Positions 3,901 through 64,000 of a DNA stretch of 64,000 bases are shown here, in pieces (position 1 is the first letter of the stretch; every line of letters begins with the position of its first letter). Source of the stretch: Apostichopus japonicus (lineage: Eukaryota; Echinodermata; Holothuroidea; Aspidochirotida; Stichopodidae); assembly GCF_037975245.1 (NCBI RefSeq), contig NC_092567.1, positions 787,501 to 851,500 on the forward strand, given 5' to 3'. The notes under the pieces were generated by a model. That model saw only the letters and a program-made list of their open reading frames with translations. It had not been told where the DNA came from and did not search any database. The position numbers and the translations under genes are program-made.

Positions 3901-6900
3901 AGGTCGACTTACTTTTACACATTCTCCTACACAGGCTCTCTAGTGGATAAGCAGTTTGCTAACAGTTTTATTTTATTTTGACCAAAAAGAACTAGCGAAT
4001 GTACAATGTTCATGTAGTTTATAAGTTACATATAAACAAGGATGAACTCTCCTATAGAAGGATCTTAACCATCCATCATCACCTGTCCTCTTGAATTCTC
4101 TTTATTGATTATCGCATTCGAGCTTCATTAGGCATACATGGACACACAATCTGTCACACTAACAAGTACAGTATGACCAGATCAGGGTTCATCAAGCATG
4201 ACTGAATTATATATACTGTAATAGTGAATACTGTAAGAGATAAAGAATGCAACTTATAAATGAACTTCTACAGTAGCTCTGAGATTAAGAAAGTACCAAC
4301 CAAAAGTTAGTTTTAGAAGAGATTCTAGCTGTTGTAATGTAGTAATTATGATCTTAAGTCATAGAAAACCGTTCAATTAAACATTAAGCATGTCTTAATT
4401 CCAAATGCTCAATGGATGACAAATAAAAGGTTTTTGTTAAAAAATGTTTGACCATTATTTGACTAGTACCGTATCTAGCATATTTGAGGGCGATACTGAT
4501 GACTGTTAAATGCAGACTTTATGAATAGTTCATTTGAAGGAAGAGGTGATGGGTGGCGTCTCGGAAGTGGGTCCATTGGAGGTGCAGAACTATAATGTTA
4601 CCAGTTTATAGGCTAGCACTCTAGATGTGAAAGTAGAGTAGTACAATACATTGTACAGTATGTACATACAGTACATGTACAATAGAACCACTAGTAATAT
4701 AGTTGTATACATTGTATGTACATGTACAATAGAACCACTAGTATTATAGTTCTGGACATTTCTAGCATTTAATTAGTTCCCTGGCTTTTGCTGACAACAT
4801 TATGACCTTTGTTTCTTCAAATCGAAAGATGATCTGCCAATGTGTTAAATGGACTTCCTGAGTATACTGTACTAATAATACCAACAATCATATTCAACTT
4901 TGATAAGATTTGATTAGATCTCTCTTGAACATTGTCCACTTCTTGCATATATCCATACTGTAGGTAAGATAACAGGAAGGTTCAGCACAGAATACTTGTA
5001 CAGTACTATATACAGTACTCTATACAGGAAAAATGCACACACACACACATTATGTGTAACAAAGCATTGGCTAACCTTTACAGAACATACTTTTAAAGCT
5101 ACACTTTGCATGTATAAACTCCTGTATATATAATTTGTATTATAACTAAAGTTACTAATGCTAGAAGGGTTTATGAAGGAGACTACGGTACTCTGCCTAC
5201 TGTATGAATACAATAATGTGTTGTAACAAAGTAATCATTTTCCTAGCTAGCCTATAGTGTACTGTAGGTATAGTGTCATTAGCCATACAACCAGCAATAT
5301 CTAGTTTCACTAAGCTGGTCTGATCCCATTGAAGTTTGAACCTTACAATGTTTAGACAAATCCCGAACATTCCAACCGATTGCAACAATATGAGTGAACA
5401 CAAGTGGTGCAAGGATCATATATAGTACCTTAGGTGTAGTCTTGAAAATGATGATAGTGGCTCATGTCCACAGTAAAGTTTACATGAAAGCAGTCAATTT
5501 GGCTTGTGCGAAAACTAGTAGTCTACAGGGCTGAAAATACAACTACTAATAGTAGTACAAAACTGACCGGGTTTGGATATTAACGAGTGACAAGCTTACC
5601 TGTCTTCTCACAACCTAAGCACTCTAATTCTAGAGTGAACTGGTAACATTTTAACACTGCGCCCTCTATGACCGGACCCCTCCCTTCTCATTATACCACT
5701 TAAAGTGTCTAGAACATTTGTTTCTTGCTTGGATTTTTATAGCGTTTAATCTTACGGAAATGTTTTGCCAGTGTTTTCGGAAGAGGCAGAGGTTTGGTTG
5801 AATTGTCATACCCAGCCTGATAAGCATGGAGGGTTTTGGGGTTCTGGATCGGTCCTGTTTTAAAAGGCTTTATCGGGATTAGTGTAGTGGTTCCACGAAT
5901 AACACTAAAACAGAACTTTACATACACATTTTAACACTTGTAACAGGAATTTCAGAAGTAATAATAATGGAGCAGCATTCAGTTGCACTAAATTATTTAC
6001 ATATATTGGCTAAATAACATCACTATAATTAAAATAGTTCCACTTTATAGAGAGTTGTCCAGGCTACAGTAGCTACATGTTTCTTTACTGTATGTCCTGT
6101 AGTCAATAGACATTTTCCAACGGTTTCATCAATTGTGTAAATATACAGTAAAGTAAGTCTGCAACAAACAGTCTGATAATAGTTTAGCATTCTCTCTACT
6201 CATCTCACAAACAGCTCTTCATTGAGCTTGATCAAGTTGCCATGGTTAATTTTATTTGTGGAGACTGTGATCATTACCCGGTCATATACAAAGTCTGCGC
6301 TCATTTTGTCATGTTTTCGGGCGAAAGTACATAACGGCATTGACATACTGTATTACACCAGCAGTTGTACTTACTATCGTAGGAACTTGCATACATACAG
6401 TAAGATACAGAACATTGAATGATTGCAATTCCCTTGAATGCTATTATATACAGTAGTTTGCGCATAGCTTTTATGTCTCGTTTGGGAAATCGACATGCCA
6501 AACCTGCATTGTCTTGATTGGTATGTCAGTACATGTACAGTACAGAATGGAAACACTGCTTCCTTATTGGCATGACATTGCACAGTTAGTTTATTCAATC
6601 CAAACTTACCAACAATTCACTGTGCTTATAATTCGAACCATTTGCTTCCATTTGGAACTTTGCATACCTTCTTTCAAGGGTTCCTTTGCTAATTAAATTT
6701 CCAACATACTGTACATAAACAGGGTACAACTTGTTTGGGAGGGGGCGGGGGGGGGGGCAACTGTAAGGGGAACTGGTTGGGCAATTTTATGCAATTGATT
6801 TGTTGCAGTCCAAGTTTTCCTGTCAAGGACCGTCTCAACTCGCCTAATTTCTGTCCCTTTTCATTTGCAAACGGTTCAGTTCATTTTGGCAAGACTTTTC

Positions 6901-9900
6901 ATGGATTACACAGTTATTTCCTAGTAAAATGATTTTTCTCAGCTCTGTAATACTAACAGTACTGCAGCGCTTAAGTCACGAAATGCGATGAAAGTTAACA
7001 ACACAACCATCGCAGCAGTGGCACGTTCTGCCTGACAGTGCACTGCATGGATACATGTATACATACAGCATTTTGTCATGACTTTACTTTCAGATTTTGA
7101 AATCTCTTTATTTATGTCAGTATGAGATGACATTGAAACTTCATTAAACAACAGCCCTGCACAGTAAACAGTAAAGATGGATCATTTTAATAAACACTGT
7201 CTTTGATCAACTGACTAGTTGTACTCCATAGAAATTACATGTACATTAATTGAGACAATAACAAGGGCACATTCATCACAATTTACTATTAAAGGTATCC
7301 ATGTACACTGTACTGTTAAACCCTGCTCCTGACCATAAACTGTACTGTGTGCTAGTGACCAAAACTTCTCAGCATTACTCGCGGTTAACAAAATATTTGT
7401 AACGTTAAATGACCACTTTAATGTAGCACTGAATAAGTGTGTTAGTTGAGTACTACAATATCATTTGTCATTAAATAAAAACTGCATGTTACTGTATATG
7501 TTCAACTACTGTATCTGAGTGTATTTTTAAAAATAACTTTTATAAAATCCAGCCAATTGCCAGCTTTCAAATTAGCTTTTAGTGCTTGAATGAAATACCA
7601 GCTTCTGTGAATTCATTAAATTTTATAAGGAAGTGAATACGTAGCTTTATTTACCAAAATCAAAATTTCAGTATACTGTAGATGACAATTTATGTCAATC
7701 TTTCATATTTCAGGTGCGAGGTTCGTCATAAAAATGTACCAATTCAGCCTCTTACTGAGCCAATGGAGGAGGCGGCCTGAAATTAAAAACATCAACTAAA
7801 ATACAATATACAATGCATACTGTACAGTAGTATACAGTATAAACAGGCCGTTACTAATTAGGTTGTCAAAGGGTATAATCAATGACATGAATAATTAAAG
7901 ATCTTCAAGCTAGATATAAAGTCTGGGTGGATTTGATAGTGAAGAGCGTCATTATTAAAAGGAGACCAAACCACAGCAGAGTGTTATAGATCAGGATACA
8001 AACTGGAGGCTGGACTAACCAAATTACTGCCACAATATAATTCTCTTGAACCATAGATTTAAAAGATGCAATTTAGAAATATGCTGCATATTAAAAACTG
8101 CAAATTATCTTTTTATTTGTTATCAATGACAGCAGCAGATAACGTTCTTATTATCTCTACTGTATGTTGTACTAACATTACCATACATAGGATTTGTACT
8201 CAAGAATACTGCATATTGTTAAGTATTAAAGCTAACCTGACAACCAGCTGAATTAACTGCCTAAAGTAGCCTTTAAGTACTGTACATCTATTGTATACAT
8301 GTACTGTATCTACAGTACTAATCACACTGATCAGCAGTGTACTGTAGCTGATACACAGCTAATGTCTATATTTACAGGACATTAAAGGTGATGGTATGCT
8401 TTCTACAGTTACTGTACTCACAACTAAATGTAACACTGAACAGCCTACTGTGGATCTGTGTACTGTATGAACTAAACACACTGATCAGCAGTGTAGCTGA
8501 GAGACAAGTAATGTCTGTATTTCTAGGACAAGATAGGTGATGGTATGCTTTCTACAGTTACTGTACTCACAACTAAATGTAACACTGAACAGTGAGTGGG
8601 TCATTTGTGATGTTCATGTAAACCAAGTATTGTAATTTTTATTAGTGTTAATGTGCTATAGATATACAGTAACTTACTCTGTTACTCTCTTAAAAGTATT
8701 AGAATTGTATTCAGAACTTTACAGTATTTCAATTATTTAGTTACAATATTTAAAGGTAACTTACCAACTATCAGTAAATGATGCAAATTTTATGGATACC
8801 AATACGATTAATGCATGCACATAAACAGTGCAGCACTAAAATAGAGTAGTGTGAAGATTCCTGCGAACTGTATGGACAACAACGTCAACCATTACATAAG
8901 TTACTGTAGTACAGTATATCCCCTTCATTCATCTAACAAGCTGTAAATTAATCCATGAATTTTACTGCAGGTTGAAAATCAATACTGTCCCTACTGTATC
9001 ATGAAGTACATTAAAGTACAGCTCCCTACTCTCCCTGTATATTCCAAATATCTTGCCCAAATATAGAATTCAACTGTATAGAAATTCGTTCATATACCGT
9101 GTAGCAATGTTTATACAATTTGATAGTTTAGAACCTTTATTATAGTTCAGTAATGACTGTTTCATCATTTTATGTTTAAACCATTTAACAATCTTATTTC
9201 TTTCACTTACCATTTACCATATCATTTGTTTAATCTTAACAAGAACTGTTTTTTGATGTACACCTATTTATAAATATTTTATATTTATACTGGTTTAAAA
9301 TAAATCAAAATCGAAATATTCAAACATAACTTTAAACCTTTCGCAGCATGGATACTTCCATTAATACAGTACCTCAAATCTCTCAATTGCATATTGCTAC
9401 ACTACAGTATATTAACCTATGTGTTTTAACACAGTAAGCAGTACAGTACCTCATAACATTTGCACCTTAGGGACTTGCAAAATGTCAACCTGCTTGTATC
9501 ATCTCTTACTGTAACTATACTTAGTCTAATATTTAATTTCTTATTGGCAAACTCTCAATGACATTGCTGTGCATAGATCATGCTTTGCAGACCCTCGGCA
9601 CAAAATGCGTTGATAATAAATTCACCATATGCAGTATGTAAAGCAGCATCAGCTGTAAGACTGAAAGGTTTGTCGATATCTGCTCGTCAAATCCACTTAA
9701 AATGTACTACACATAACTGAATGTGAGCGTACAGTACAGTTTGTTATGTAGGATTCACACTTGAATGCTGAATGTTTGCTAGTACTACATAGCAGTTAGT
9801 TATCTGTATCAAGGTGGTCTTGAATCAAAGTACGGCATTAAGAATCACATGACAATAATCAGTAGCATCATGATCAACCAGTTCAAATGACTTTACAAAA

Positions 9901-23340: not shown

Positions 23341-23935
23341 TGAAAATTGGGGCTGACGGGTATTGTGGGGCGTTACGTAGAATTACCTAACAAACCTAGA
23401 TGCTTGGTGTGCACACACCTCGACCCCTCCCCCACTTTCCTCCACCGGGCCTCAGGCACTACTCTGAGACCTGGTAGATTTGGTTGCGACTCAGCCAATG
23501 TCATCTACCTGCTGTATTGTTGCAAGTGCCCCCAGGTCACCTATATTGGCGAAACCAGCACAAAGTTCAGACTCCGCTTCAATAACCACAAACTAAGTAT
23601 CCGCAATAATAAACTAGGTTTCCCTGTTGCCGAACATTTTAATCTCCCCAATCACAACTTATCTGACCTCAAATTTGTAATTCTATACGGCTTCATCAAA
23701 ACCGCCCATGAAAGAAACAACCGGGAACTAAAAACCATCTTACGCCTCAACACACACAACAATGGGCTCGACAGGGATCTCTCTTTTATGAGCATACATG
23801 CTAAGCTAAATACCAATAAGGTCTAGTTTCTTCCATTTCATTAGTACAACTGAAGAAGAGCCGTGTAAACGCTCGAAATATTTTGTTACCTATTTAACGT
23901 TCTAAAGTAATAAAGTTGGAAATGAAAGTATCATT
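23341..23935 (+). mobile_element. Penelope-like element 3' fragment with GIY-YIG endonuclease
   Basis: The frame at 23347-23826 encodes the C-terminal endonuclease of a Penelope-like retroelement. A C-x2-C pair (Cys19, Cys22) and Cys47 precede NVIYLLYCCKCPQVTYIGET, the GIY-YIG core (Tyr54 and Tyr66-Ile67-Gly68). Then come Arg77, His81, FPVAEHF with His97, His103 and Glu127. This Cys-His-decorated GIY-YIG is characteristic of these elements. The RT domain that should precede it is missing, so the copy is 5'-truncated. The frame ends at TAG, followed by AATAAA near 23909 and a (TA)n tract. Confidence 0.88.
23850..23883 (+). ncRNA. Hammerhead-like core after the Penelope-like ORF (partial)
   Basis: CTGAAGA fits the CUGANGA core, then A, GAGC, a 9-base loop, GCTC and GAAA. 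Helix II (GAGC/GCTC) is perfect. A helix III hairpin with a cleavage triplet could not be drawn, so it is a relic or a dimer-type half. Confidence 0.4.

Positions 23936-23952: not shown

Positions 23953-23954
<2 letters not shown>

Positions 23955-24030
<76 letters not shown>
23955..24030. repeat. (TA)n microsatellite
   Basis: Uninterrupted TA for most of the interval, between the Penelope-like 3' end and the hammerhead at 24041. Confidence 0.98.
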
Positions 24031-24032
<2 letters not shown>

Positions 24033-24040
24033 TCTTGTTG

Positions 24041-24086
24041 AGTTGTCTGATGATCGCAATAAAGCGTGAAACTCCGAGTTACAACT
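24041..24086 (+). ncRNA. Type-I hammerhead ribozyme motif
   Basis: All elements occur in the right order. Helix I 3' strand is AGTTGT (24041-24046) and the core CTGATGA is 24047-24053. Helix II CGC/GCG has loop AATAAA (24055-24066) with a U-U opposition next to the core. GAA is 24068-24070. Helix III is ACT (24071-24073), loop CCG, AGT (24077-24079). The cleavage base T is 24080, completing a GTT triplet, and the helix I 5' strand ACAACT (24081-24086) is fully complementary to AGTTGT. It lies just downstream of the Penelope-like fragment, whose class is known to carry hammerheads in terminal repeats. The weak point is the U-U at the base of helix II. Confidence 0.72.
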
Positions 24087-24179
24087 ACTAGTGTTCCACT
24101 AGTCTCATCTAGTATCAACATATATTCCGCTCTGTCCAATGGACATAGAGCACTCTGCGCCAAGATAGACGCCAACCTA

Positions 24180-24224
<45 letters not shown>

Positions 24225-62170: not shown

Positions 62171-64000
62171 TTTATTTATTTGTTTCTTTTTTCTCCACAG
62201 AAGTACAAAGCGGAGGGAAGTCTTCCATAAAGCTTAAAAAGCTTAACAAAGTGGAAGACTCCCAAACGAAAAAAGTAATTAATAAATACAAATTGAATTT
62301 TTGTTACATAATGTACAGTCACTGTTGAAGTAAATAACTCATTTACATAATTTAATATGATGATATCAATTCTTTTTTTAAACATTTCTTAAATGAATTC
62401 TTTGTAGTCTTAGATTTAACGATATTGTTTAATGAGTTCCATAACTTAGTTGCACGGTTGCGAAAGCTGCGTGTACCTAATTTCGTATGATAGAAGTTGC
62501 AATGAGCATTTTGTCTATTTCGGGTATTTTAATTGTATAATTCTACATTAATTGTAAAGACATTATGAAAGGAGCCCGGAAGTAGCCCATGCCATGCTTT
62601 ATACGTAAATACAGCAAGTTGTAGCCTTATGATATCATTTAATTTCAGCAGGTTTTGACCTTTAAACAATGGACTAGTATGCTGACGAAATGCAGCTAGT
62701 GTTATGTTACGAATTGCACCTTTTTGTAGTTTATTGAGACGGCCAAGACAAGTTATGTTAGCACCAGACCAAATAATAGAACAGTAGGACAGATGAGGTA
62801 GAATGAGCGTATTATAAATCATTCTTACAATGTGTTTCGATAGGAAATGTTTTATTTTAGCGAGTATACCAATTTTCCTTGCAACCTTTGAACATATTAC
62901 TGAAATATGTTGTTGCCAACTTAGTTTTGAATCAATATATACACCTAAAAATGTTATGTAGTCAAGGGTTGTTGGAGGAATTAAAAACAATGTAGTGTGT
63001 TTTGTTGACATTAATAGAAAGCTTGTTTGACCGAAACCAGTTACTAAACTTTTCTAGTTCATTAGATACAGTAATAGGTAGGATGCTAATATTGTCAGAG
63101 TCGAAAAAAATAGTGGTGTCATCAGCAAACAGAGTAACTTTTGCAATATTGGACACTTGACATATGTCGTTTACACAAATAATGAATAATAGAGGTCCCA
63201 GGATAGATCCCTGTGGTAAACCACAATGGACTTGGACAAGATCAGAGTTATGTGACTTATACGCAGTAAATTGGTAACGGTGAGATAGGTAGCTGTCGAA
63301 CCAATTTAGAGTAGTACGTCTTATGTGCAACTTATTCAGTAAAATAGAATGATTAATGGTATCAAACGCTTTACTTAAGTCTAGAAATACACCAATGCAA
63401 GTCTTATGTTGATCAAGTTTACTGTAGAGATTATCAATTGCATCTACCAGAGCGAGCTCAGTGGAGTGATTGTATCGAAATCCGTACTGTTGTTTATTAA
63501 GAATGTTGTGTTTATCCAAGAATCTACAAATACGATTAAACAATAGTCCTCCTGTAAGTTTCGCAAAACAAGAGAGTAACGATATTGGCCGGTAATTTTC
63601 ATATACATTGTTCTGGCCATGTTTGTAAATTGGTAAATCTTTAGCAATTTTCAACTTGTCTGGAAAGACACCTGTATTAAATGATAGGTTACAAATATGG
63701 GCTAGTGGTGTGACAATATACTTAGCGGCCTGTTTGATAATATCAGGACTGAAATCGTCATATCCTGCAGCCTTTTTTTGGTTTAATTGCAGTGTCGATA
63801 GTTTTCAGTAATTCTTCTTCCGTTACGAGGAAGATGAACACAGAGTTTGGGTTGGGATTTCTGCTTTTTCAAGGGGTTTAATCTTGCTGGCCAGTGAAGG
63901 GCCTACATTTACAAAGTAATTGTTAAAACTATTAGCAATTTCCTGGTTGTCCGTGACAACGTTTTGGTTATGGTGAAAGGCCGTAGAATATGACGATTGA
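62171..64000 (-). mobile_element. Non-LTR retrotransposon (CR1/Jockey-like LINE), broken RT ORF
   Basis: On the minus strand, fragments in several frames give EIANSFNNYFVNVGP, then AAGYDDFSPDIIKQAAKYIV. The frame at 63654-62962 follows with NVYENYRPISLLSCFAKLTG, QQYGFRYNHSTELALVDAID, VFLDLSKAFDTINHSILL, GLPQGSILGPLLFI and the catalytic FADDTTIFF. The frame at 63011-62529 continues with DYITFLGVYIDSKLSW, LPHLSYCSIIW and the C-terminal region. The same frame resumes after an in-frame TAA at 62529 with LGTRSFRNRATKLWNSLNN. Frame breaks lie near 63835, 63780 and 62970. The 3' end is AAATAAATAAATA, at the edge of the duplicated segment. The element is inactive and continues past base 64000. Confidence 0.93.

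Follow-up and report, generated by a model that had tools for sequence, protein, structure and literature searches.

Minimal type-I hammerhead ribozymes occur in the pseudo-LTRs of Penelope-like elements (PLEs) (Cervera and De la Pena 2014, as cited in the available parts of PMC6155905 and PMC7229834). In the Anolis element PAc, reverse transcription (RT) starts internally at two sites that bound a “tail”, and both target strands are cut and extended in vitro (PMC11167929). In the sections of that report available to us, the hammerhead cleaved only with protein, there were no RNA reads at the hammerhead site, and cleavage was unnecessary for insertion in vitro. For the head-to-head pseudo-LTRs of Adineta vaga Penelope, the accessible part of the original study favours self-priming on an antisense template (PMC3846280). 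The field has yet to settle whether these hammerheads are active in vivo and what keeps them in PLEs.

Here we describe a hammerhead-like motif at 24041 to 24086 of a 64,000-nucleotide stretch of Apostichopus japonicus DNA (the window). Judged by its sequence and that of its relatives, the motif is a type-I hammerhead of a PLE and not a chance likeness. It forms about the first 46 nt of a 143-nt unit (24040 to 24182) that has hundreds of matches in the genome (671.6 Mb, 35 contigs). Unit positions below are counted from 24040, and the two inverted parts of a copy are called its left and right arms.

The motif and its variation among copies

The features of the window copy and its surroundings are as follows.

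23347–23826, + strand: C-terminal GIY-YIG fragment of a different Penelope-like lineage (PF01541, E 3e-4, 21.4 bits, below the cut-off of 22.6)
23953–24031, no strand: (TA)n microsatellite, the putative target
24031–24040, + strand: 5' junction, ACTCTTGTT followed by G; the left arm is absent beyond at most 4 nt
24041–24046, + strand: 5' strand of helix I, AGUUGU, by direct reading; 24041 is the candidate transcription start, from arm ends and an untemplated G
24047–24053, + strand: core CUGAUGA; N7 is U here, A in most copies seen and C in some
24054–24067, + strand: helix II, CGC/GCG (24055–24057 with 24064–24066), with a 6-nt loop, AATAAA (24058–24063), flanked by U-U
24054/24067, + strand: the U-U pair, positions 10.1/11.1, by direct reading and comparison of copies
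24068–24070, + strand: core GAA, by direct reading and comparison of copies
24071–24079, + strand: helix III, ACU-CCG-AGU, by direct reading and comparison of copies
24080, + strand: H17 (U); predicted cleavage between 24080 and 24081, from arm ends there and from H17 variation
24081–24086, + strand: 3' strand of helix I, ACAACU, by direct reading and comparison of copies
24087–24103, + strand: perfect hairpin ACTAGTG-TTC-CACTAGT (unit 48–64), by direct reading and folding; three copies join here
24125, + strand: putative inner RT start, unit 86, within ACATATAT; inverted left arms of other copies begin here
24126–24182, + strand: 57-nt tail ending in CCAACCTACTC; putative outer RT start and insertion 3' end
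24181–24224, + strand: (TC)n then (TA)n, the 3' junction, by direct reading

Direct reading confirmed what the initial annotation had proposed for this motif: all hammerhead elements are present in order, helices I and III are perfect, and the predicted cleavage site lies between 24080 and 24081. The CUGANGA...GAA core, NUH triplet and open helix I of the type-I class are all present in the unit, though a few decayed copies break them. A permissive type-I descriptor (5-bp helix I, mismatch allowed at 10.1–11.1), run on both strands of the window, matched one place, 24041–24086; it matched nothing in 400 simulated 64-kb windows (first-order Markov), which bears out the earlier judgement that a chance origin is unlikely. 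The exact 46-mer with up to three mismatches occurs once in the window.

The lack of a covariance-model hit had been named beforehand as grounds for giving up the assignment, and Rfam returned nothing for the motif at gathering score, so that as far as Rfam is concerned the assignment formally fails. With relaxed filters the only match was Hammerhead_HH9 (RF02275), which scored 16.0 bits (E 0.36) where the gathering score is 52; in five loci with different haplotypes no hammerhead was matched up to E 1. The gathering score is a detection threshold and not a defining feature of type-I hammerheads. The minimum free energy fold of the motif differs from a hammerhead (-5.9 kcal/mol, versus -3.6 kcal/mol for the hammerhead secondary structure), and the motif folded no better than shuffled sequences (z 0.71). 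In our view the family evidence outweighs the missing Rfam match.

Constraint was counted in 55 of 73 right arms (ending at unit 1–3 or running on upstream), aligned without gaps. The loops varied at 37 of 495 bases, the core without N7 at 1 of 660, the helices at 2 of 1206 and unit 48–143 at 17 of 5280, while N7 was A in 52 copies, C in two and T in one. Variation falls mostly at places that hammerheads tolerate, namely N7, the loops and H17 (U, A or C). Because the copies are young, few ancestral events underlie the variable sites. No compensatory helix changes were found among 13 haplotypes, so the helices are conserved but not proven. A G10.1-C11.1 pair is usual in hammerheads, where it lies outside the invariant core. 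The unit lacks this pair and has U at both positions in 55 of 55 gapless copies and in 41 of 41 haplotypes listed. The U-U pair had been entered as a caveat on the motif in the window; it is indeed present, but it is not a local defect.

A non-U base at unit 41 was found in 301 pattern matches, with both arms of a copy counted. Eighteen loci were picked by hand from 100 listed of these, and 16 proved to be H17 subfamilies or decayed copies, so that reading the 301 matches as truncation ends was rejected; 13 had H17=A (two of them decayed) and three an H17=C copy. At L124 an H17=C copy has the end of an ORF upstream. The other two picked loci, with G before the site, were rejected as instances of H17=G since they are truncation ends at 42, and when H17=G was searched for exactly, in one sequence context, the genome yielded one place. 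Departures from the constraint are G at 16.1 in L111 (GGA triplet) and L123 (GGT triplet), a CCGATGA core in L120 and a helix II change in L054.

The parent element and the insertion sites

To sample copies, we searched the animal's own genome with two parts of the unit. The hammerhead query (24035–24130) gave at least 69 matches, with 40 of 976 candidates scored, and the tail query (24121–24185) at least 42, with 40 of 787 candidates scored. The genome-wide search for paired copies around a full-length element that the initial annotation had suggested was successful. One locus (L106, C1:5820700–5823500, minus strand) carries two units 2601 nt apart that differ at 1 of 149 positions and that stand in tandem around one ORF, as in a pseudo-LTR arrangement. 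This uninterrupted 797-aa ORF starts 200 nt downstream of the point at which the first hammerhead begins, and 6 nt separate the end of its stop codon from the second unit. Several other copies also run on upstream or downstream.

From the motifs NIPIP, DIVEFYPSI, YRDDG and YKAEV..TYIGLT..NHK, identified by eye, we take the 797-aa ORF to be a Penelope-like RT-endonuclease. Pfam recognised no domain in this ORF, and a PDB sequence search with it returned nothing relevant. The parent is likely an EN-containing PLE, a confidence that applies jointly to the whole explanation given below. The GIY-YIG ORF 215 bases upstream of the motif, which had been offered as its context, is of the right class, Penelope-like. 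Its similarity to the GIY-YIG part of the L106 protein (E 2e-6) is limited to 39% identity over 49 aa, and we rejected it as the parent since it belongs to another lineage. The link suggested by the neighborhood is therefore not the real one; the fragment and the unit meet in one (TA)n tract. As a separate observation, the minus strand of the window at 62962–63654 holds a 230-aa ORF with RVT_1 (E 1.4e-33).

In many copies an inverted partial unit stands head to head with the unit. The outer ends agree in almost every copy fetched: the left arm begins at unit 85–86 beside (TA)n and the right arm ends at 141–143. The exceptions are L043, in which the two ends are swapped, and L031, which stops at 113. 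A pattern running to unit 141 recovered 69 right arms. A tract of at least (TA)6 lies within 60 nt of 62 of them, versus 0.8% of window positions; of the remaining seven, three continue into the ORF and four start with TC or CTCTCCACC runs. An internal RT start, a tail and an AT-rich target are thus present, as read from insertion ends rather than from enzymology. With the same joint confidence as for the parent, the window copy is likely a solo 5'-truncated PLE terminal unit (a “pseudo-LTR plus tail”) inserted in (TA)n.

Several further features of these loci were noted. TC or CTCTCCACC runs follow the unit in L078, L083, L084 and at window 24181–24203, and they look like stuttering of the reverse transcriptase at initiation. 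By eye, L006 has a GIY-YIG-like fragment resembling that of the window, beside the same (TA)n tract and upstream of an inverted copy, and L004 has a PLE-like 3' end upstream of an inverted copy.

Inner arm ends and their explanation

Unlike the outer ends, the inner ends of the arms vary. The hammerhead-query sample, which is biased to copies that hold the hammerhead, yielded 41 arms in 38 of 40 loci, of which 7 run on upstream and 34 are truncated. Thirty of the 34 truncated right arms end at unit 1–3 (the others at 77, 80, 83 and 98), and 26 of 31 left arms at 1–4 (the others at 7, 11, 13, 22 and 65). The tail-query sample yielded 38 arms in 36 loci; 8 of the arms continue upstream and 30 are truncated, and a left arm is present for 27. 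Here 16 of 30 right arms end at 1–3 and the other 14 at 6, 8, 37, 45, 46, 48 (three), 53, 70, 74, 75, 81 and 100; 17 of 27 left arms end at 1–4, two at 42, three at 48 (at the hairpin) and one each at 7, 19, 45, 62 and 65.

The base that precedes these common ends at the start of the unit points to a transcript end. In copies that run on upstream, the base before AGTTGTC was C in 22 of 22, a few of which are perhaps counted twice where loci overlap. When the two samples were pooled and shared places counted once, G preceded 24 of the 37 truncated right arms ending at 1–2, C 11 and A two; for 33 left arms the preceding base was G in 22, C in eight, A in one, T in one and none in one. The window copy itself has G24040 where C stands in the parent. 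Copying of a cap gives an additional G. Because the extra G at arm ends fits a copied cap, we place the transcription start at 24041, although the G may instead derive from an unseen source copy with a genomic G at that place.

A second class of ends lies where cleavage is predicted. Copies with two arms, the left one extending to unit 42, were sought with a pattern (right anchor at unit 49, blind to ends at 43–47), which found 12 places, in 16 rows with four on both strands. By our reading, in which some of the next bases are possibly templated, the left arm is at 42 in 11 of these places and at 40 in one; the right arms are at 42 in five, 43 in three, 45 in one, 46 in two and 48 in one. A control pattern placed 11–12 nt upstream (anchors 30/38, one base tighter) found no place, and one place when subfamily differences were allowed. 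G precedes one of the five right arms at 42, and one other lacks filler and is uninformative; ends at 42 are mostly without G and therefore unlike a second capped start; they resemble instead the product with a 5'-OH that the hammerhead would leave, and the ribozyme probably self-cleaves weakly in vivo. In L121 the left arm is joined to the right arm at ACAACT, and some joins at 42, of which L121 looks like one, can be microhomology because the strands of helix I are reverse complements.

We consider the following explanation likely overall: a PLE terminal unit with a capped start at the hammerhead, two-strand priming and a weak self-cleaver. The PLE mRNA would start, capped, at the first base of helix I (24041). 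The reverse transcriptase would start internally on two target strands, at +85 (ACATATAT, beside the TA target) and at +142, and both cDNAs would extend to the 5' end of the RNA and then join head to head. The commonest templates would be intact RNAs ending at the cap, and a minority would have been cut first by the hammerhead, with the capped 40-nt leader removed and the 5' end at 24081. The hammerhead would be a real but weak self-cleaver, perhaps assisted by protein. For a full-length copy, RT would begin in the downstream leader, pass its hammerhead and enter the ORF. Rapid cleavage of such a tandem transcript would part the ORF from the RT start site, and it could therefore be speculated that selection would retain a ribozyme that is slow or aided by protein. 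We infer that two-strand priming on one sense RNA accounts for fixed outer and variable inner ends more simply than antisense self-priming does.

Insertions primed inside the leader would freeze the 5' end of their template, so that the end classes would give the capped start and the self-cleaved end. More tentatively, and with rather less than even confidence, the genome may record ribozyme action: its two end classes would correspond to the capped start and the self-cleaved 5' end, and the hammerhead (mRNA nt 1–46), which the fixed U-U pair would slow, would serve the retroelement as a timed switch for decapping. If this is true, the ratio of the two end classes estimates germ-line cleavage.

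Other explanations were weighed against this one. The hammerhead fold could be kept as a domain for RT binding or folding, and not as a ribozyme, with the ends at 42 due to pausing or template switching. The invariant U-U at 10.1/11.1, the dispensability of cleavage for Anolis insertion in vitro (in the available sections of PMC11167929) and the occurrence of ends at 45–48 are all consistent with such a role. However, a pause would be expected before helix I (unit 47–48) and not after its 3' strand had been copied, the left arm is by our reading at 42 in 11 of 12 places, and the H17 bases of the copies seen conform to NUH, a restriction that a site used for binding alone would not require; we regard a binding domain as unlikely. 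The joins at 42 could also be microhomology deletions, since the helix I strands (unit 2–7 and 42–47) are reverse complements and the arms are inverted copies, and the join at ACAACT in L121 looks to be of this kind. This origin would predict 42 joined to 2, and not both arms near 42 with filler (GT, TG, TGTGA), and the pattern anchored 11–12 nt upstream found at most one place, so we think it quite improbable for the class as a whole.

A chance likeness to a hammerhead within a repeat, for which the scores below the Rfam cut-offs and the unremarkable fold could be cited, is very improbable given the empty simulated windows, the variation mostly at tolerated sites and the location in the leader of a PLE, a known setting of hammerheads. 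We give still less credence to an inverted-repeat DNA transposon or MITE with a TA target: it would account for inverted arms with TA on both sides, but the center is copy-specific, the arms are unequal, the outer ends are fixed while the inner ends vary, and an intact ORF-bearing element (L106) carries the unit. A delta-like ribozyme cutting at unit 1 was rejected by eye, as the order of segments does not fit.

Comparison with known systems

The same genome contains other hammerheads. At least 50 Hammerhead_1 motifs score over the Rfam cut-off (at least 70 matches, with 74 of 66307 candidates scored). Inspection by eye of the 20 at L009–L028 placed 19 immediately downstream of a B-box-like sequence (such as GGTTCGATTCC) in a SINE-like repeat; this repeat mostly has (TA)n at its end, and helix III is a palindrome in most. 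L012 begins with helix I, adjoining (TA)n. A unit of some 565 nt in L062 (8846–9411), present also in L061, L063 and L065, opens with a B-box-like head (GGTTCAAACC) and carries at its end the hammerhead and tail of the unit described here, as if a tRNA-type head had been fused to the PLE 3' end. ARAGORN found no tRNA in L062, L061, L011 or L106 and made two tRNA calls in L009, downstream of its hammerhead. Beside the SINE-like unit of L062 is a LINE (5532–8414), with a 961-aa open frame containing endonuclease (PF14529, PF03372) and RVT_1. Model R1, applied to 7 of the 20 Hammerhead_1 loci, gave no match up to E 5. The unit described here is like the Hammerhead_1 copies (RF00163) in that its hammerhead belongs to a repeat mostly ending in (TA)n, and unlike them in that theirs have a canonical G-C helix II.

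Solo insertions with readable 5' ends can be counted as a direct test wherever a genome holds an active PLE, and those reported here favor two-strand priming over antisense self-priming for the PLE head-to-head structure. In the literature that we covered in part, we found no report of a fixed U-U pair or of arm ends at the cleavage site.

As far as the available parts of the cited reports allow comparison, the unit resembles PLE pseudo-LTR hammerheads and PAc in its place in a pseudo-LTR and ORF leader, its minimal form, its tandem units and its AT-rich target, and it resembles PAc in having an internal RT start with an optional tail. The distance from the start of the core to the insertion 3' end is about 135 nt here and, by our arithmetic, about 115–122 nt in PAc. 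In contrast to those systems, as these sources describe them, the unit has a short but complete helix III (ACU-CCG-AGU) and a (TA)n target; the U-U pair at 10.1/11.1 is a candidate difference from other PLE hammerheads. The start codon lies outside the core, whereas the ORF of PAc, in the same partial account, begins at stem II. The hammerhead would here start at nucleotide 1 of the transcript, with genomic ends at the cleavage site, unlike in PAc as there described, and the two arms use different start sites, while in PAc no such difference between the strands was apparent.

With metazoan retrozymes, in the available text of PMC7229834, the unit shares a type-I hammerhead in a dispersed retroelement, but its parent has an ORF and there is no tandem array of repeats of about 300 bp. 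Like Adineta vaga Penelope, so far as the accessible portion of PMC3846280 describes it, the unit has an inverted shorter 5' pseudo-LTR, a tail on one inverted pseudo-LTR and an Inr-like sequence; compared with that element, the fixed outer starts and RNA-end-like inner ends seen here fit two-strand priming on sense RNA.
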